Source of the DNA: Spirochaetales bacterium
Lineage (GTDB): Bacteria > Spirochaetota > Leptospiria > Leptospirales > Leptonemataceae
Assembly: GCA_015075425.1 (NCBI GenBank)
Contig: JABTUL010000002.1
Coordinates: forward strand, 868,001-932,000
DNA length: 64,000 nucleotides
Direction: 5' to 3'
In this document: piece by piece, positions 6,949 to 56,479 of the stretch
Position numbering within the stretch: the stretch's first letter is position 1
Layout: each line of letters opens with the position of its first letter
Notes under the pieces: generated by a model
Seen by the model: the letters and a program-made list of their open reading frames with translations, nothing else
What the model was told of the DNA's origin: nothing
Databases searched by the model: none
Translations under genes and position numbers: made by a program

Positions 6949-9027
6949 ATGCGATCAGGCGCCGCCGATTTCCAGCGTTTTTCCTGGCCGTTCAGGAATT
7001 TCCTCTCTCGCGCCTGGCTCCTGCTGGTAGTTTTTTTCGTGTACTGTGGCCAGGAAGAGAACTGCCCGGCTCCCCGGGCCGGGGTTCTGGATTTACGGAG
7101 TCACGAAACTTGCCTGAACCGACTGGACCTTTCCGGTGAGTGGTTGGTTGGCACCGGACTGAACCCGGAGGGCTGGCTGGCGCATAAAGTGCCGGCGGCC
7201 TGGACAGACCCACTGCCGCCACAGGGCGTGGCAACGTATCGCTTGCGTATCCTGCTGCCGCAGAATCTGGCGAAAACTATCTATGGCCTGCAACTGCATT
7301 ATATAACCAGCGCCTACGAACTTCGGGTGAATGGAATTCCTGCTGGGGGCAAGGGGCAGCCGGCAGCGGAACCTGAGTATTACCGCCCTGAGGCGGCGAG
7401 TCAACTCCTTCCCTTCGCCATTCCCGGCCCCGATGTCTTGCTGGAAATCACCGTGGCCAATTTTACCCATGCCAAAGGAGGGATTCGCACACGGATCTTC
7501 TTTGGCCGATTCTCGGAACTTCGGAAATACTATGACCGCGCCATGATGCTCGATGGCTTCCTGGCCGGTGGCTTGATTCTGATTGGTCTGTATCATTTCG
7601 GGCTGTACTACAGCCGGCGCGAAATGCTATCGACCATCTACTTTGGTATCTTCGCTCTGTCTGTGGCAGTGTATTCGCTCTGTACGGGGCAGCATTTGAT
7701 CCGCGTACTGCTTCCAATGACCGGAAATGTCTCGCAGCTCCGTATTGAATACCTCTCTATTGCTCTGGGTATTGTCACTTTTTTCGCTTACCACAAAGGA
7801 GTGTTTCCGCGGCAGAACTGGAAAGTAGCACTCTATGCCATATTCGGGTTTGAAATTATCTACATGCTGCTCGTCATCCTTACACCGTCGCTTTTTTTTA
7901 CGCAGCTGGTGGGTTTGCAACAGGGGATGCTGATTGTTTCTGTGGGTTATGGTTTGATCAGCGTTATCGTTGCTGTTTTCCAGCGGGAACCTGGCGCCCG
8001 GATGGTTCTGGCCGGATTCCTGGTATTTGGATTCACATTGATTCACGATATATTAAACAACAGAAATATTATACTATCGACTCCGCTCTCTGCGTACGGT
8101 TTTCTGGCGTTTTTGCTGGCCCAGGCCTACTTGATTGTGCGAATTTTTAGCCATGCTTTTGATGCTATTTCAGAATTAACAGAGCAGGCCATCGCAACCA
8201 GTCGCGCTTACGGAAGATTTGTTCCCCGCGAATTTCTCAAACATCTCAACAAAAAGGACATCAAAGAAATAAAACTCGGTGACCAGATCCAGGAGGAGAT
8301 GACCGTTCTTTTTGCTGACATTGTAAACTTCACGGCAATGTCAGAAAAGATGACTCCATCGCAGAACTTCAATTTTCTAAATTCTTATCTGGGCCGAATG
8401 GTGCCGCTCATTGAAAAGCACGGGGGCTTCATTGATAAATTTGTGGGGGATGGAATCATGGCCCTGTTCCCGCGCAGCGGAGAAGATGCTGTCCGGGCGG
8501 CGCTGGCGATGTTTGTGGAACTGCAGCGTTATAATGTACGTCGCCGGCTACAGGGATTTGACAGCGTTGCCATCGGGGTGGGAATCCACAAAGGACCACT
8601 GATGCTCGGAACGATCGGTTCTGAAAGCCGGATGGACAGTACAGTCATTTCAGACACAGTGAACATTGCCGCCCGGCTGGAAAAACTGACCCGCCCCTGG
8701 AAGACTGCCATCCTCACTACGGAAGCGGTTGTGCAGGATCTCAGCGGAGATGATTTTCTCATTCGCCTGGCCGGGGAGCTCGCTGTTAGGGGCAAGCTCC
8801 AGGAAGTTTTGATTTATGAAATCGGTTTAAGCAAAGAGCTGGAGGAGGTCGAGAAATGGAAAGCCACTCAGGGCGCCATGGAAGCGGGGGCATTATTGTA
8901 CTCTCAAGCGCAATGGACTGCTGCCCGGGAACGGTTTGAAACCGTACTGGCCATCAATCCGGATGATGGTGTGGCCCGATGGTATGTCGATCGACTGGAG
9001 GAAAGCCGGATCCCGACAGTTGTTTGA
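6949..9027 (+). CDS. 7TMR-DISM receptor adenylate cyclase with C-terminal TPR
   Basis: 692 aa. Order of domains: N-terminal hydrophobic signal/anchor (~20-35), a beta-sandwich extracytoplasmic domain (~50-185, LDLSGEW then YELRVNGIP, a sugar-binding-like DISM fold), seven transmembrane helices (~200-400), and a class III cyclase domain (~440-610). FADIVNFT (near 453) and VGDGIMALF (near 500) supply the metal aspartates. KFVGDG and SDTVNIAARLE supply the Lys/Asp pair typical of ATP specificity plus the transition-state Asn/Arg. The last 60 residues look like one or two TPR units. It likely makes cAMP in response to an external ligand. Confidence 0.88.
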   Translation: MRSGAADFQRFSWPFRNFLSRAWLLLVVFFVYCGQEENCPAPRAGVLDLRSHETCLNRLDLSGEWLVGTGLNPEGWLAHKVPAAWTDPLPPQGVATYRLRILLPQNLAKTIYGLQLHYITSAYELRVNGIPAGGKGQPAAEPEYYRPEAASQLLPFAIPGPDVLLEITVANFTHAKGGIRTRIFFGRFSELRKYYDRAMMLDGFLAGGLILIGLYHFGLYYSRREMLSTIYFGIFALSVAVYSLCTGQHLIRVLLPMTGNVSQLRIEYLSIALGIVTFFAYHKGVFPRQNWKVALYAIFGFEIIYMLLVILTPSLFFTQLVGLQQGMLIVSVGYGLISVIVAVFQREPGARMVLAGFLVFGFTLIHDILNNRNIILSTPLSAYGFLAFLLAQAYLIVRIFSHAFDAISELTEQAIATSRAYGRFVPREFLKHLNKKDIKEIKLGDQIQEEMTVLFADIVNFTAMSEKMTPSQNFNFLNSYLGRMVPLIEKHGGFIDKFVGDGIMALFPRSGEDAVRAALAMFVELQRYNVRRRLQGFDSVAIGVGIHKGPLMLGTIGSESRMDSTVISDTVNIAARLEKLTRPWKTAILTTEAVVQDLSGDDFLIRLAGELAVRGKLQEVLIYEIGLSKELEEVEKWKATQGAMEAGALLYSQAQWTAARERFETVLAINPDDGVARWYVDRLEESRIPTVV

Positions 9028-51207: not shown

Positions 51208-52323
51208 ATGGATGCTGCGGAACTGGCCCGCTACCAGCGCCAGATCGTTCTACCGGGTATGGGAGAACGGGGCCAGCAAAAACTAAAAGAAGCGTCCGTC
51301 TTAATCGTGGGACTGGGTGGCCTGGGTTCACCACTGGCTCTGTATCTGGCGGCTGCCGGAATCGGAAAGCTCGGGCTTGTGGACGGCGATCAGGTGGAAG
51401 TGAGCAACCTCCACCGGCAGATTCTATACTCCACAGAAGATGCAGGCAAGCCCAAGGTTCAGGCGGCGGCTGCCAGACTGCAGCGATTGAATCCCCATCT
51501 GCAAATCGAGGTCCACCAGACTTTTTTCGAGACAGAGAATGGCTCAGCCCTTGTTGCACCCTACCAGTGGATCGCGGACGGTACCGACCGCCTGAGAGCG
51601 CGGCACAACATCAATCGGGTTTGCGTCCAGGAAAAAAAGAAGGCAGTTTTTGCAGCGGTGGAAGGGTTTGAAGGCACGCTCTTTGTTCATGATCCATGTG
51701 GCGCTTGCTTTGCCTGCCTCTTTCCCGAGACACACTGGCAGCCGATAGCGTGCGCGGAGGCTGGAGTACTCGGACCGGTACCCGGAGCGCTGGGGACACT
51801 GCAGGCGCAGTTGATCCTTTCGCATTTGCTCGCTGTGCCTGGTCCTCGGTTCGTGCTGATCGACCTTCGTACTTATACCATGAAGCCGATGCAAATCGAA
51901 AGAAATCCCCGCTGTTCTGTTTGCGGTCAGTCCGGTGAAAATCAAGCACATCCCGGACAAAGGAGTGGTCGGCCGGACGCCTCTGGAGATAATGCCCTGG
52001 TGCCGGACCGTATAACTGTCCACGAGCTCAAGGCCCTGCGCGAAGCGGCAGCGGATTCATTTCTTCTGCTCGATGTTCGCGAGCGCCAGGAGACAGAAAT
52101 CTCGCGGATTGAAGGCTCGCTACTCATCCCGATCAGTGAATTCACAACCCGGTTGGGCGAACTGGATCCGGAACGCACGACGATAGTCTACTGTAAGGTG
52201 GGGATCCGGTCCGCACAGGTCGTGGAATACCTGAAAGCCCGGGGTTTTAAGGATGTACGCAATTTGCTTGGTGGCATCAATGAGTGGGCCGACAGGATTG
52301 ATCCTGACATGCCGGTCTATTAA
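51208..52323 (+). CDS. MoeB/ThiF-type adenylyltransferase with C-terminal rhodanese
   Basis: 371 aa. E1-like domain: LIVGLGGLGSPLALYLAAAG (ATP), DGDQVEVSNLHRQILY, DGTDRL, and two CxxC pairs (CGACFACLF and CSVC) binding zinc. The C-terminal rhodanese domain (~265-371) has the active-site Cys in VYCKVGIRSAQV. This is the MOCS3-like arrangement for activating ThiS/MoaD-type sulphur carriers. It starts one base after pntB, an unusual neighbour. Confidence 0.9.
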   Translation: MDAAELARYQRQIVLPGMGERGQQKLKEASVLIVGLGGLGSPLALYLAAAGIGKLGLVDGDQVEVSNLHRQILYSTEDAGKPKVQAAAARLQRLNPHLQIEVHQTFFETENGSALVAPYQWIADGTDRLRARHNINRVCVQEKKKAVFAAVEGFEGTLFVHDPCGACFACLFPETHWQPIACAEAGVLGPVPGALGTLQAQLILSHLLAVPGPRFVLIDLRTYTMKPMQIERNPRCSVCGQSGENQAHPGQRSGRPDASGDNALVPDRITVHELKALREAAADSFLLLDVRERQETEISRIEGSLLIPISEFTTRLGELDPERTTIVYCKVGIRSAQVVEYLKARGFKDVRNLLGGINEWADRIDPDMPVY

Positions 52324-53125: not shown

Positions 53126-54037
53126 ATGCGACCGCGCTCCATTGCCGTCATGAATTTCAAAGGCGGTGTTGGCAAAACGACTCTGTCTGTGAACCTCGCG
53201 GCGGCTCTGTCGGCCAGGGATGGTCGGCCCGGAAAAAATCGAGTGCTCCTGGTCGATGTGGATCCGCAGGCCCATGCCACGCTGTACACGCTGGGCGAAC
53301 CAGCACCGGTCTCGCAGTCCCTGGTGGGTATCATTGAGCGTCATCGGCAGGGAAAGCAGGAGTTCATTGCTTCAACCGACCTGATTGGCTACACTGCGCC
53401 CAGTCCGGTATTTTCCGGTCATTTCCCGGCGCTGCATTTGCTGGCCAGCCATCATGAATTGCGCTCCCTGGAACTGGAGATAGAACAGAAGCTGGCCAGG
53501 AAAGAATGGCCTTCGGGGCCACCGCGATCTTACAAGCTCTTCAGCTATCTTCTGGGGAAGGTCTGGCATAACTATGATTTTATTATCTTTGATTGTGCGC
53601 CCAATTTTCACTGGCTGACAGCATCGGCCATTTTTGCCTCTGATGATTTTATTGTGCCGGTCATTGCCGACTTTCTATCCATTGACGGATTGCGCGAACT
53701 TATCCATTTATTGGCGGAAGATCATGCAGCAAAGGCTTCGGGCCGGACCCGACGGATTCGCCTGATACCTGTAATGCTCTGGGCCGATGCCCGGGACACG
53801 GTGCATGCCCAGTATGTGGATAAACTCAAAAGGGAAATTGTACCGGAGCTCTGCAAGGACGGCGCGATGATCTCAGAAATGCTGAAAGCCTGCGAAGTGG
53901 TTGATGGCCTGCAGCGATTGAAGGTTGTTCAGAAGCAGGTCCAGCAAAGGCGCCCCCTGACAGATCTGGATGGATCTGAGGCTGCGCGCATCCAGCTGGA
54001 GAACCTGGTGACTCGCATAATGAAATGGAAAGATTGA
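53126..54037 (+). CDS. ParA-family ATPase
   Basis: 303 aa from ATG 53126 (a TTG at 53108 adds six residues). Deviant Walker [19 protein letters not shown], Walker A' [10 protein letters not shown], and IIFDCAPNF give a complete ParA/MinD-type site. No ParB-like gene follows; instead two unfamiliar genes follow within 16 and 2 bases. It may position or regulate the nuclease encoded downstream rather than segregate DNA. It has no N-terminal DNA-binding HTH. Confidence 0.9.
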
Positions 54038-54053
54038 GCCAAAGGAGTGCGCT

Positions 54054-54542
54054 ATGAATACAGCGAATACCGCAACGGAAGTTAAAGCTGCGTTAAAAGA
54101 CCTGGCCGCGCAGCCATTGGAGTTGCTTGATCGCAAATCACTGGAGAGCCTCGCAAAAACTCTATCCCGATTGCAGCAAAAAATTATTACCATCAGTGAC
54201 AGGGCAGCATTGCAACGTATGGAAGCAGCGGTGCCGCTTGAGGATCGGCCACTGTTTGCTGCGATTCTCAAAAGTCTGTCAAAGGGCAAAAAGACTCTGC
54301 GGCATTATGAAATGGCTGCTGCGCGCAGTCGGGAACTGTCGCGCGAAATTCGGCCCCGTTTGCAAAAACTGCGGTCCATGGATGAAACTGCAGCGCTGGC
54401 TTTTCTGGGTGCTCTGGGAGCCGAGGAGCGTCTGCACTTCAGCCTGCTTGCCAGTGTAACCGGAAGTAAGGGACAGCTCTTAAAACTCACGGCCGCCCGC
54501 AAAAACCAGTTGGAATGGTGGCGTGGCCTGCATCTGAAATAG
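54054..54542 (+). CDS. Unknown helical protein in the ParA/nuclease cassette
   Basis: 162 aa, with a strong AAAGGAG six bases before the ATG. The sequence is entirely helical and charged, with heptad-like stretches (LESLAKTLSRLQQKII and RSRELSREIRPRLQKL) and a basic C-terminus. I recognise no domain. Located 16 bases after parA-like and two bases before the nuclease gene, it could be an adaptor linking the ATPase to the nuclease or to DNA. Confidence 0.72.
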   Translation: MNTANTATEVKAALKDLAAQPLELLDRKSLESLAKTLSRLQQKIITISDRAALQRMEAAVPLEDRPLFAAILKSLSKGKKTLRHYEMAAARSRELSREIRPRLQKLRSMDETAALAFLGALGAEERLHFSLLASVTGSKGQLLKLTAARKNQLEWWRGLHLK

Positions 54543-54544
54543 TT

Positions 54545-55324
54545 ATGGACGCCGGAGCACTGCTCCTGCGCTGCGAAGCGCTGCTGGCTGAACACCGCGG
54601 GCCCCTGACGGTGGCCCGGCTGCGGCATCTGGACGCAGAATTGCGCTCTGTTTCCGAAGAGAAGCTGACTGAATTGCTCAAGCAGGCCGCTCTGTCCCCG
54701 CAGAGTCGGTTGGTCTATGTTGCCCATGGTGATTTTCTGGGCTTTACCATTTCATCTGTCAGTCTGGCGTCCGATCCCCTGCTGGACGGAGAACGTAAAC
54801 TATACATACCTTTCCAGCGCTACCTGGAGAAGCAAGGACAAAGGGCCATCGCCCTGGACCACACTCTGGCCGGTGCGGCAAAAACCGATGGCACCTGGAC
54901 CCATCCTGATCTGGTCAGTGTGAATGAAAGCGGCCTGATCACAGGCTATGAGGTGAAACTCCGGCTGAGCCGCAGCGAGTATCGCCTGGCTTTCTTTGAA
55001 TGTCTGGCGAATTCAATCTGGGCTAATGATCGTTATGTTGTGGCCCCCGATCCGGATACTGAGGCCGTAGCAGGCTTTGCCCGGCTGGCGAAGAGGATGC
55101 CGGTTGGTTTGATCGGTCTGACTGTGGATCAGCCGGATTCTTTGATGCCACTTGTTGAAAAAATGCAAATTCTGGTTCCCTGCCAGCGCCGGGAGCTGGA
55201 CCGGGAAACTCTGGAAGAATTGACGGAACGCTGGGCGCAGCTTCGGACTTTTCTGGTACAGTGCGGGCTGTCAGATGCTACCTGGACTTCGCAGCAATCT
55301 TCCCGGTCGATTTCTTCTTCGTAG
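54545..55324 (+). CDS. HrgA/COG2958-like PD-(D/E)XK nuclease
   Basis: 259 aa from ATG 54545. The N-terminal ~70 residues look like a winged helix (HARE-HTH-like). The rest follows the layout of HrgA/COG2958 restriction-associated proteins: ERKLYIPFQRYLEKQG, IALDHTLAG, THPDLVSVNESG and GYEVKLRLS, then LAFFECLANSIWANDRYVVAP. Asp122, Glu136 and Lys138 can form the PD...ExK metal site. A Ser-rich tail ends it, and 47 bases overlap the convergent TfoX-N gene. Family assignment is from memory of the pattern; no search was run. Confidence 0.75.
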   Translation: MDAGALLLRCEALLAEHRGPLTVARLRHLDAELRSVSEEKLTELLKQAALSPQSRLVYVAHGDFLGFTISSVSLASDPLLDGERKLYIPFQRYLEKQGQRAIALDHTLAGAAKTDGTWTHPDLVSVNESGLITGYEVKLRLSRSEYRLAFFECLANSIWANDRYVVAPDPDTEAVAGFARLAKRMPVGLIGLTVDQPDSLMPLVEKMQILVPCQRRELDRETLEELTERWAQLRTFLVQCGLSDATWTSQQSSRSISSS

Positions 55325-55688
55325 TTGTTTTCTTCTTACCGGTCGTTTTTTTCCTGGCTGGCTTTTTTTCCACCGTGGCCACAAAGTCCAGAGCCAACCC
55401 GGTCAGCCTTTTCAGTTCCGCATCCTCTTTGACTTTGTCCATGGAAGCATAAAGAAAACCCACCATGGGCTTTCCGGTGAAATCCATGGGGCGAATGCCT
55501 TTCTCTTTGAGGAGAAGCTCAGCGTGCTCTGGACCCACACGGAGCATCAAATCATTCTGCATCACACCACAGAACATTTTATCTGAGCTGAGCAAACATA
55601 ACCCGCCAAACATCTTCTTTTCCGTTATGTTCTTGCGGCCCTTCAGTGCTTTGCGCACGCGCTCGGCCAGTGTTTCATCGTAGGCCAT
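55278..55688 (-). CDS. TfoX N-terminal-domain protein with histone-like tail
   Basis: 136 aa from ATG 55688 (a longer frame overlaps sdhB). ERVRKALKGRKNITEKKMFGG opens a TfoX_N domain (~1-105), with CLLSSDKMFCGVMQNDLMLRVG. The last 30 residues are a Lys/Thr/Ala tail (KKTTGKKKTTTKKKSTGK) like histone H1 tails, suggesting DNA or RNA binding. TfoX_N proteins without the C-terminal TfoX domain have no settled role. Its tail is encoded antisense to the nuclease's last codons. Confidence 0.85.
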   Translation of the reverse strand: MAYDETLAERVRKALKGRKNITEKKMFGGLCLLSSDKMFCGVMQNDLMLRVGPEHAELLLKEKGIRPMDFTGKPMVGFLYASMDKVKEDAELKRLTGLALDFVATVEKKPARKKTTGKKKTTTKKKSTGKIAAKSR

Positions 55689-55699
55689 GTTTTCAGTTC

Positions 55700-56479
55700 T
55701 TATCCGCTGCCGCCCGCTCCTTGGGCCTGACCCAGAACTGGTGTAAGACTCGCGGACAGATACTCCCGGTTCATGCGAGCTATGAACTGTACACTGATCT
55801 CTTTGGGGCAGACCGCTTCGCATTCAAACTGATTGGTGCAATTACCAAAGCCTTCCTGATCCATTTGCGTAACCATCTGGTGGACCCGCTCCTTCTTCTC
55901 TACTACTCCCTGAGGAAGCAGTCCCAGGTGCGAGACTTTCGCCGCCACAAAGAGCATGGCTGAAGCATTTTTGCAGGCGGCGACACAGGCGCCGCAGCCA
56001 ATGCACTGGGCAGCATCCATGGCTACATCGGCTATTTTTTTAGGGATGGGGAGAGCATTGCCGTCCGGCGCACCACCGGTGTTTACAGAAACAAAGCCCC
56101 CGGCCTGGATGATGCGATCAAATGCGCTGCGATCCACGGCCAGGTCTTTAATGACCGGAAAGGCTCGGGCCCGCCACGGTTCGACAAAAATCGTATCACC
56201 GTCTTTGAATTTTCGCATGTGCAACTGGCATGCTGTTGTGCCGCGATCGGGTCCGTGCGGTGTGCCATTGATCACCAGAGAACACATCCCGCAGATACCT
56301 TCACGGCAATCATGGTCAAAAGAAACCGGATCCTGCTTTTCGAGGATCAGTTTTTCATTGAGAACATCTAACATTTCCAGGAAGGACATGTGCTCGCTGA
56401 CATCGTCGAGCTGGTAGTCCACCATCCGTCCCGCTTCTGTATGATTCTTTTGCCGCCAGATTTTTAGTTTGATTTTCAT
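55700..56479 (-). CDS. sdhB: Succinate dehydrogenase iron-sulphur subunit
   Basis: 259 aa. [14 protein letters not shown] and a later Cys coordinate the [2Fe-2S] cluster; [13 protein letters not shown] and [12 protein letters not shown] coordinate the [4Fe-4S] and [3Fe-4S] clusters. It transfers electrons from SdhA to the membrane anchor. Its ATG shares ATGA with the sdhA stop (56476-56479). It is the last gene of sdhCAB. Confidence 0.95.

Follow-up and report, generated by a model that had tools for sequence, protein, structure and literature searches.

A ParA-type ATPase and a basic helical protein are joined to a predicted HrgA-type nuclease in a gene system of spirochaetes

We describe a gene system made up of a ParA/MinD-type ATPase gene (A), a gene for a basic all-helical protein (B) and a gene for a predicted nuclease (C), which recurs at unrelated sites in distant relatives. 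It was studied from a 64,000-nucleotide stretch of DNA, referred to here as the window. What is new is that a ParA-partner pair is joined to an HrgA-type nuclease; A and C fall into known superfamilies and B into none that is recognised. The literature searched, which was covered in part, yielded no description of the combination, and B and C have no model in PADLOC, Pfam, NCBIfam or PHROGs, in line with the suggestion of a preliminary description that the system was undescribed. The reading that we favour, at a probability of roughly 0.36, takes A-B-C for an accessory module whose A and B proteins may bind or patrol DNA and deliver C as a nuclease effector, probably against foreign DNA.

Organisation of the locus

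In the window, A, B and C are intact open reading frames (ORFs) on one strand, with gaps of 16 bases between A and B and 2 bases between B and C. This packing, reported in the preliminary description, was reproduced from the ORF coordinates. The features of the locus are as follows.

53126-54037, + strand: gene A, ParA/MinD-type ATPase, 303 aa
54041-54047, + strand: Shine-Dalgarno-like sequence AAAGGAG upstream of B
54054-54542, + strand: gene B, basic all-helical protein, 162 aa
54545-55324, + strand: gene C, winged-helix and predicted PD-(D/E)XK protein of a divergent HrgA-type branch, 259 aa
54545-54769, + strand: winged helix-turn-helix domain of C, residues 1-75, with VIA Z-scores of up to 9.8 to many winged-helix domains
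54782-55264, + strand: predicted PD-(D/E)XK nuclease domain of C, residues 80-240, from the AlphaFold2 model and VIA
54908-54958, + strand: predicted active site of C (D122, E136, K138), invariant in 25 members, cassette and standalone
55278-55823, - strand: TfoX-like ORF convergent to C, overlapping its 3' end by 47 bases (55278-55324)

No ParB or methyltransferase gene lies beside A-B-C in the window, where the neighbours are DUF1275-like, MoeB-rhodanese, TfoX-like and sdhB genes. The PADLOC E1-E2 matches of the gene at 51208 were taken as generic ThiF-domain matches. The TfoX-like ORF is present in only 3 of the 22 genomes of the window genome's GTDB family, there on contigs other than that of the cassette, and on account of this rarity and separation we judged it to be flank, outside the module. 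In the window, C runs ~16 residues further than its relatives do, which looks as though the cassette had come to lie on the tail of the TfoX-like gene. Base composition gave no island signal, with a GC content of 0.52-0.58 across 51 to 57 kb.

The three proteins

By its deviant Walker A, A' and Walker B motifs, A is assigned to the ParA/MinD-type ATPases. The Walker A motif KGGVGKT (residues 12-18, 53159-53179) is complete, followed by the A' motif DVDPQ and the Walker B motif IIFDCAP, and the next genes, B and C, have no ParB matches, so the earlier account of a ParA-type ATPase without ParB was borne out. A matches the Pfam family AAA_31 (E 8.8e-34) and a ParA-like PHROG (E 4.9e-40), and its profile matches Soj in the PDB (E 4.9e-31). 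The protein lacks an N-terminal HTH domain and is longer than most chromosomal Soj proteins (303 aa against about 255-276 aa). Residues K12, G13, G14, K17, T18, D44 and D46 are invariant among nine cassette members, and the last glycine of KGGVGK is replaced by cysteine or alanine in genomes G026 and G027.

ParA-type ATPases move plasmids, chromosomes, carboxysomes, flagella and chemotaxis clusters. They bind their matrix as ATP dimers while a partner links the cargo, contact with the partner being mostly via its positively charged, disordered N-terminus, and in ParA/MinD systems a partner gene adjoining the ParA gene is the rule (PMC10241942). The ATPases of ParABS, McdAB, ParC and FlhG share with A the deviant KGGVGKT Walker A and the A' and B motifs, as well as a small partner gene directly downstream. 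The cassette differs from all of these in having no ParB or canonical parS, a partner whose fold is unmatched, and a nuclease gene in third place. Canonical chromosomal parS sites were absent from the window at up to 3 mismatches; plasmid-type centromeres differ and were screened only as repeats, and no repeat upstream of A was common to the loci. A remnant of a ParABS system was rejected, since there is neither a ParB gene nor a canonical parS. The only repeat seen upstream of A was a local, perfect 8-bp inverted repeat, GGTGGCCC-N4-GGGCCACC, confined to the two congeneric genomes G003 and G005 (L022:6177-6196 and L023:8365-8384) and possibly an operator or a terminator. In two genera, a further ParA-like subfamily that lacks B and C recurs close to an NAD-dependent epimerase-like gene (L090:5715-6746 and L092:5853-6815).

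The AlphaFold2 model of B, calculated with nine homologues, is all-helical at a mean pLDDT of 90.8, with helices at residues 3-18, 27-59, 62-75, 82-107, 111-119, 123-133 and 149-161. This agrees with its first description as a purely helical protein of 162 aa, and a Foldseek check gave no fold match (best E 1.2 in the PDB and 0.32 among viral models). The best VIA score, Z 4.4, is not meaningful for helical proteins, and searches of Pfam, PADLOC, NCBIfam and PHROGs models returned no convincing family. B is basic in all nine copies, with a net charge of +12 in the window, +10 to +14 in 8 of the 9 and +4 in G027, which suggests that it may bind nucleic acid. Neither B nor C of the window has the kind of N-terminus described for ParA partners, disordered and positively charged (PMC10241942): residues 1-20 of B have a net charge of 0 and are helical from residue 3, and the N-terminus of C has a net charge of -1. 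Some other copies of C have short basic N-termini.

C is predicted to be a nuclease of the PD-(D/E)XK superfamily from the core fold of its model and its D...E-x-K residues. In the AlphaFold2 model (mean pLDDT 86.7), the nuclease domain consists of a helix (82-96), three strands (100-103, 123-126 and 132-137), a helix (146-156) and a strand (162-168), the order expected for this superfamily. D122 lies at the start of the second strand, and E136 and K138 lie at the end of the third. The top Foldseek match was 3dnx (E 3.0e-5), with NucS, PaqCI, NucC and EndoMS at weaker E-values, and VIA matched the PaqCI endonuclease domain (Z 9.8 over 134 residues) and EndoMS (Z 8.4). Thus the model and the structural matches agree with the winged-helix/PD-(D/E)XK reading given at the outset, and the nuclease fold on which that reading depended was recovered. 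The D122/E136/K138 pattern noted in the window is also retained throughout the family: P121, D122, E136, K138, F151, N156, S157, W159 and A160 are invariant in 25 proteins, cassette and standalone, and alignment to 18 standalone members has 11 invariant positions. The type IIS restriction enzyme PaqCI has D54, E73 and K75 as catalytic residues within its N-terminal endonuclease domain (PMC10201449) and so shares with C the fold and the D and E-x-K residues. C differs from PaqCI in carrying a winged helix instead, with no target-recognition domain or methyltransferase.

Sequence comparison places C in a divergent branch of the HrgA family. The G026 copy matches HrgA-annotated genes of Vibrio, Shewanella, Proteus, Alteromonas and Helicobacter plasmids with E-values down to 4e-11, which upholds the HrgA/COG2958 kinship proposed earlier. 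C and the HrgA/HARE-HTH restriction-endonuclease-like proteins have in common an N-terminal winged helix, the PD...E.K residues, a helix with the motif F..C..NS.WA and a C-terminal LD motif. The HARE-HTH profile (PF05066) matches 2 of 10 family members, and C of the window is not itself matched by it; a profile comparison gave a weak link to ASXL1. In a phylogenetic tree, a branch with support 99/98 separates the C proteins of the cassettes from 18 standalone relatives. Some standalone relatives of C belong to the HARE-HTH-REase proteins, which have been reported next to Dnd and BREX systems (PMC10853773, PMC12839542). The cassette branch is shorter and is tied to A and B, whereas the standalone relatives are not so tied: motif scanning of their neighbourhoods, rather than full annotation, found a KGG ATPase within ~1.5 kb of 0 of 22 checked in Spirochaetota. 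An NPPY-type methyltransferase motif was likewise not seen within ~1.5 kb of these 22. The absence of a methyltransferase at the locus, remarked upon in the preliminary description, therefore stands, but not as a special trait, as the standalone relatives are also without an NPPY-type motif nearby. An orphan restriction enzyme was rejected as an explanation of C on its linkage to A and B together with the lack of a methyltransferase, a lack that its standalone relatives share as regards the NPPY type.

Recurrence, phylogeny and selection

A, B and C co-occur in the same 5 of the 22 genomes of the GTDB family and are always adjacent (in G008, B was identified from its ORF and then verified with the profile). 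G026, from another family of the same order, carries a sixth complete copy. Complete A-B-C, in one order and on one strand, is thus present in six genomes of five genera, the window included, and the objection that the three genes might rarely be adjacent falls. The proteins of the complete copies are 19-44% identical to those of the window. A seventh copy, in G029, is broken or split: its A is shortened and lies on a different contig from C, which is directly preceded by the last part of B. The profile of B, run over 393 genomes of the phylum, found it in nine genomes only, all within the order of the window genome. A and B overlap by 4 bases in G003, G005, G026, G025 and G022, and B and C overlap by 4 bases in G026; larger B-C overlaps in G021, G003 and G005 are uncertain because they rest on TTG starts of C.

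Each locus has flanks of its own; only the congeneric genomes G003 and G005 share a conserved neighbourhood. Between these two genomes synonymous sites are saturated (pS 0.79-0.82) while pN is 0.07 for A, 0.15 for B and 0.18 for C. Purifying selection thus acts on each of the three genes, and C evolves the fastest. The cassette A proteins, those from loci with A and B only included, form one side of a tree against 24 other ParA proteins (99/97), and the trees of A and C are both consistent with (G000,(G021,(G005,G003))); the deeper order is unsure owing to long branches on some rows. Taken together, A-B-C is a real gene system that recurs at unrelated sites in distant relatives.

We also looked for the genes more widely. 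A scan of genome contigs with two degenerate C motifs, which miss the G026/G029 type, returned four known cassette loci and two standalone relatives. No cassette-type A was present in a sample of 395 Bacteroidota genomes, where the best score was 117 bits against at least 179 bits for cassette loci in the class search. B was not found in plasmids, and C was found in plasmids solely as a remote standalone gene and not in phages. Viral contigs contained one standalone relative of C and no A.

A and B without C

Four loci have A and B without an adjoining C: one in G025, two in G022 (one of them split over contigs) and one in G027. No remnant of C was detected there by tblastn in the regions read. 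At two of these loci a ComFB-like ORF of 98-99 aa (PF10719, E 9.4e-6, just above Pfam's cut-off) takes the place of C, followed by a lipoprotein-like gene.

L043:6372-6668, + strand: ComFB-like ORF (PF10719) right after A and B, G025
L044:2370-2669, - strand: ComFB-like ORF right after A and B, G022, its start overlapping the stop of B by 4 bases
L043:6694-7455 and L044:1633-2373: homologous lipoprotein-like genes downstream of the A, B and ComFB-like unit in G025 and G022, 52% identical and without a Pfam match

The flanks of G025 and G022 beyond these genes differ. Since loci with and without C are intermixed in the tree of A, C has been lost, exchanged or gained more than once. A of G025 and G022 is under purifying selection without C (dN/dS about 0.10). 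A and B are thus the core of the system and C is optional; the third slot seems to be exchangeable, judging from two loci. The earlier proposal of a three-gene system holds for the linkage, at sites whose flanks differ, and needs correcting in that C is optional: A and B occur without it, and another gene can take its place.

Neighbouring defence candidates

PADLOC candidates lie near the cassette at 2 of the 7 C loci, those of G026 (PDC-S05) and G029 (PDC-M28B and PDC-S69), both from one genus and the latter with the broken copy. The other five C loci have ordinary housekeeping surroundings, and no defence-candidate neighbours were found at the locus in the window. In PADLOC-DB, neither B nor C reached a meaningful score with any model.

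L047:2469-3530 and 7032-7778: RhuM (PDC-S05 candidate) and a DUF4145 protein flanking the G026 cassette, with a HigA-like antitoxin further on
L087:1236-3528: KGGVGR ATPase (PDC-M28B match) and two unknown genes near the broken G029 cassette
L087:4813-6105: PDC-S69-like gene adjoining C in G029

A itself weakly matches PDC-M28B (E 0.00096), which comes from a candidate defence operon and is, like A, a ParA-like ATPase. It has KGGVGR instead of KGGVGK and other partners, and is a separate system that lies near C in G029 by happenstance.

What the system may do

In the favoured reading, that of nuclease delivery, A would be expected to sit on non-specific DNA as an ATP-bound dimer, and B would be the basic helical link from A to an exchangeable third protein, perhaps with a DNA contact of its own. 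Together they would spread over or patrol DNA while holding C. Release or activation of C would follow when the ATPase cycle or the winged helix encounters something foreign or abnormal, and cutting at that site would defend the cell against phage or plasmid DNA. We infer that A and B bind DNA, that the proteins form a physical complex, that C cleaves and that the system serves in defence. The linkage and order of the genes, the nuclease fold with its intact predicted active site, the purifying selection and the loss or exchange of C while A and B stay all point towards such a module. The defence part draws on the sporadic presence of the cassette, the restriction-enzyme fold of C, the Dnd and BREX neighbourhoods of HARE-HTH-REase proteins and the PADLOC candidates at G026 and G029. 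Against it stand the housekeeping flanks of five of the seven C loci, the survival of A and B at loci that lack C, the confinement of defence candidates to one genus and the conserved synteny of G003 and G005, which looks more like stable inheritance than rapid turnover.

As A and B are kept without C at four loci, placing C cannot be their sole job. An unlikely reading when taken by itself, and one nearly as likely as nuclease delivery, is that A and B, paired as a ParA and its partner, position or segregate a main cargo other than C, which could be part of the chromosome, a cluster of proteins or what was once a mobile element; the third gene, whether it encodes a nuclease or a ComFB-like protein, would then be one of several accessory cargos or helpers. 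Besides the four loci without C, the ComFB-like third gene at two loci, one overlapping B by 4 nt, and the usual placing of a partner gene beside the ParA gene (PMC10241942) are as such a pair would have it. What it leaves unexplained is that ParB, a canonical parS and a common repeat upstream of A are all missing and that the N-terminus of B in the window, helical and without net positive charge, is unlike that of reported partners; the sporadic presence of A and B also speaks against a core segregation role.

The retention of A and B where C is absent could also mean that they are leftover antidotes of an addiction unit akin to toxin-antitoxin systems, in which C, as a toxic nuclease held off by A and B, would maintain the locus. 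The compact operon, the translational overlaps in other copies and the pairing of a basic B (+12) with a mildly acidic C (-5) in the window would suit this. We consider it improbable: antitoxins rarely comprise a complete ATPase and a second protein, standalone HrgA relatives exist without A or B, and the purifying selection on A without C in G025 and G022 suggests a use of its own. There is a similarly slim chance that the system serves DNA repair or genome maintenance, with A recruiting B and C, as a structure-specific nuclease, to lesions or replication intermediates. The fold of C does resemble the mismatch and repair nucleases EndoMS/NucS, but restriction enzymes have the same fold, the distribution is sporadic, and the flanks read hold no repair genes save mutS ~4 kb away in G021 (L021). 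Chance adjacency of a plasmid-derived ParA gene to two unrelated genes, for which the abundance of ParA genes in these genomes might be cited, is refuted by the renewed adjacency of A, B and C in five further genomes (six complete copies of the same order and strand), the monophyly of A and of C, and purifying selection.

Returning to nuclease delivery, a doubtful but broader version of it is that A and B constitute a new ParA-based platform which places exchangeable third proteins on DNA and which, with C, would be an immune nuclease free of a methyltransferase and moved along DNA by a ParA motor, a type of defence so far undescribed. If the pairing of ParA and nuclease is conserved, DNA-cutting enzymes would join the list of ParA cargos and the HrgA family would gain a new genetic context. 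The exchangeable third gene would then offer a direct handle on what A and B carry.
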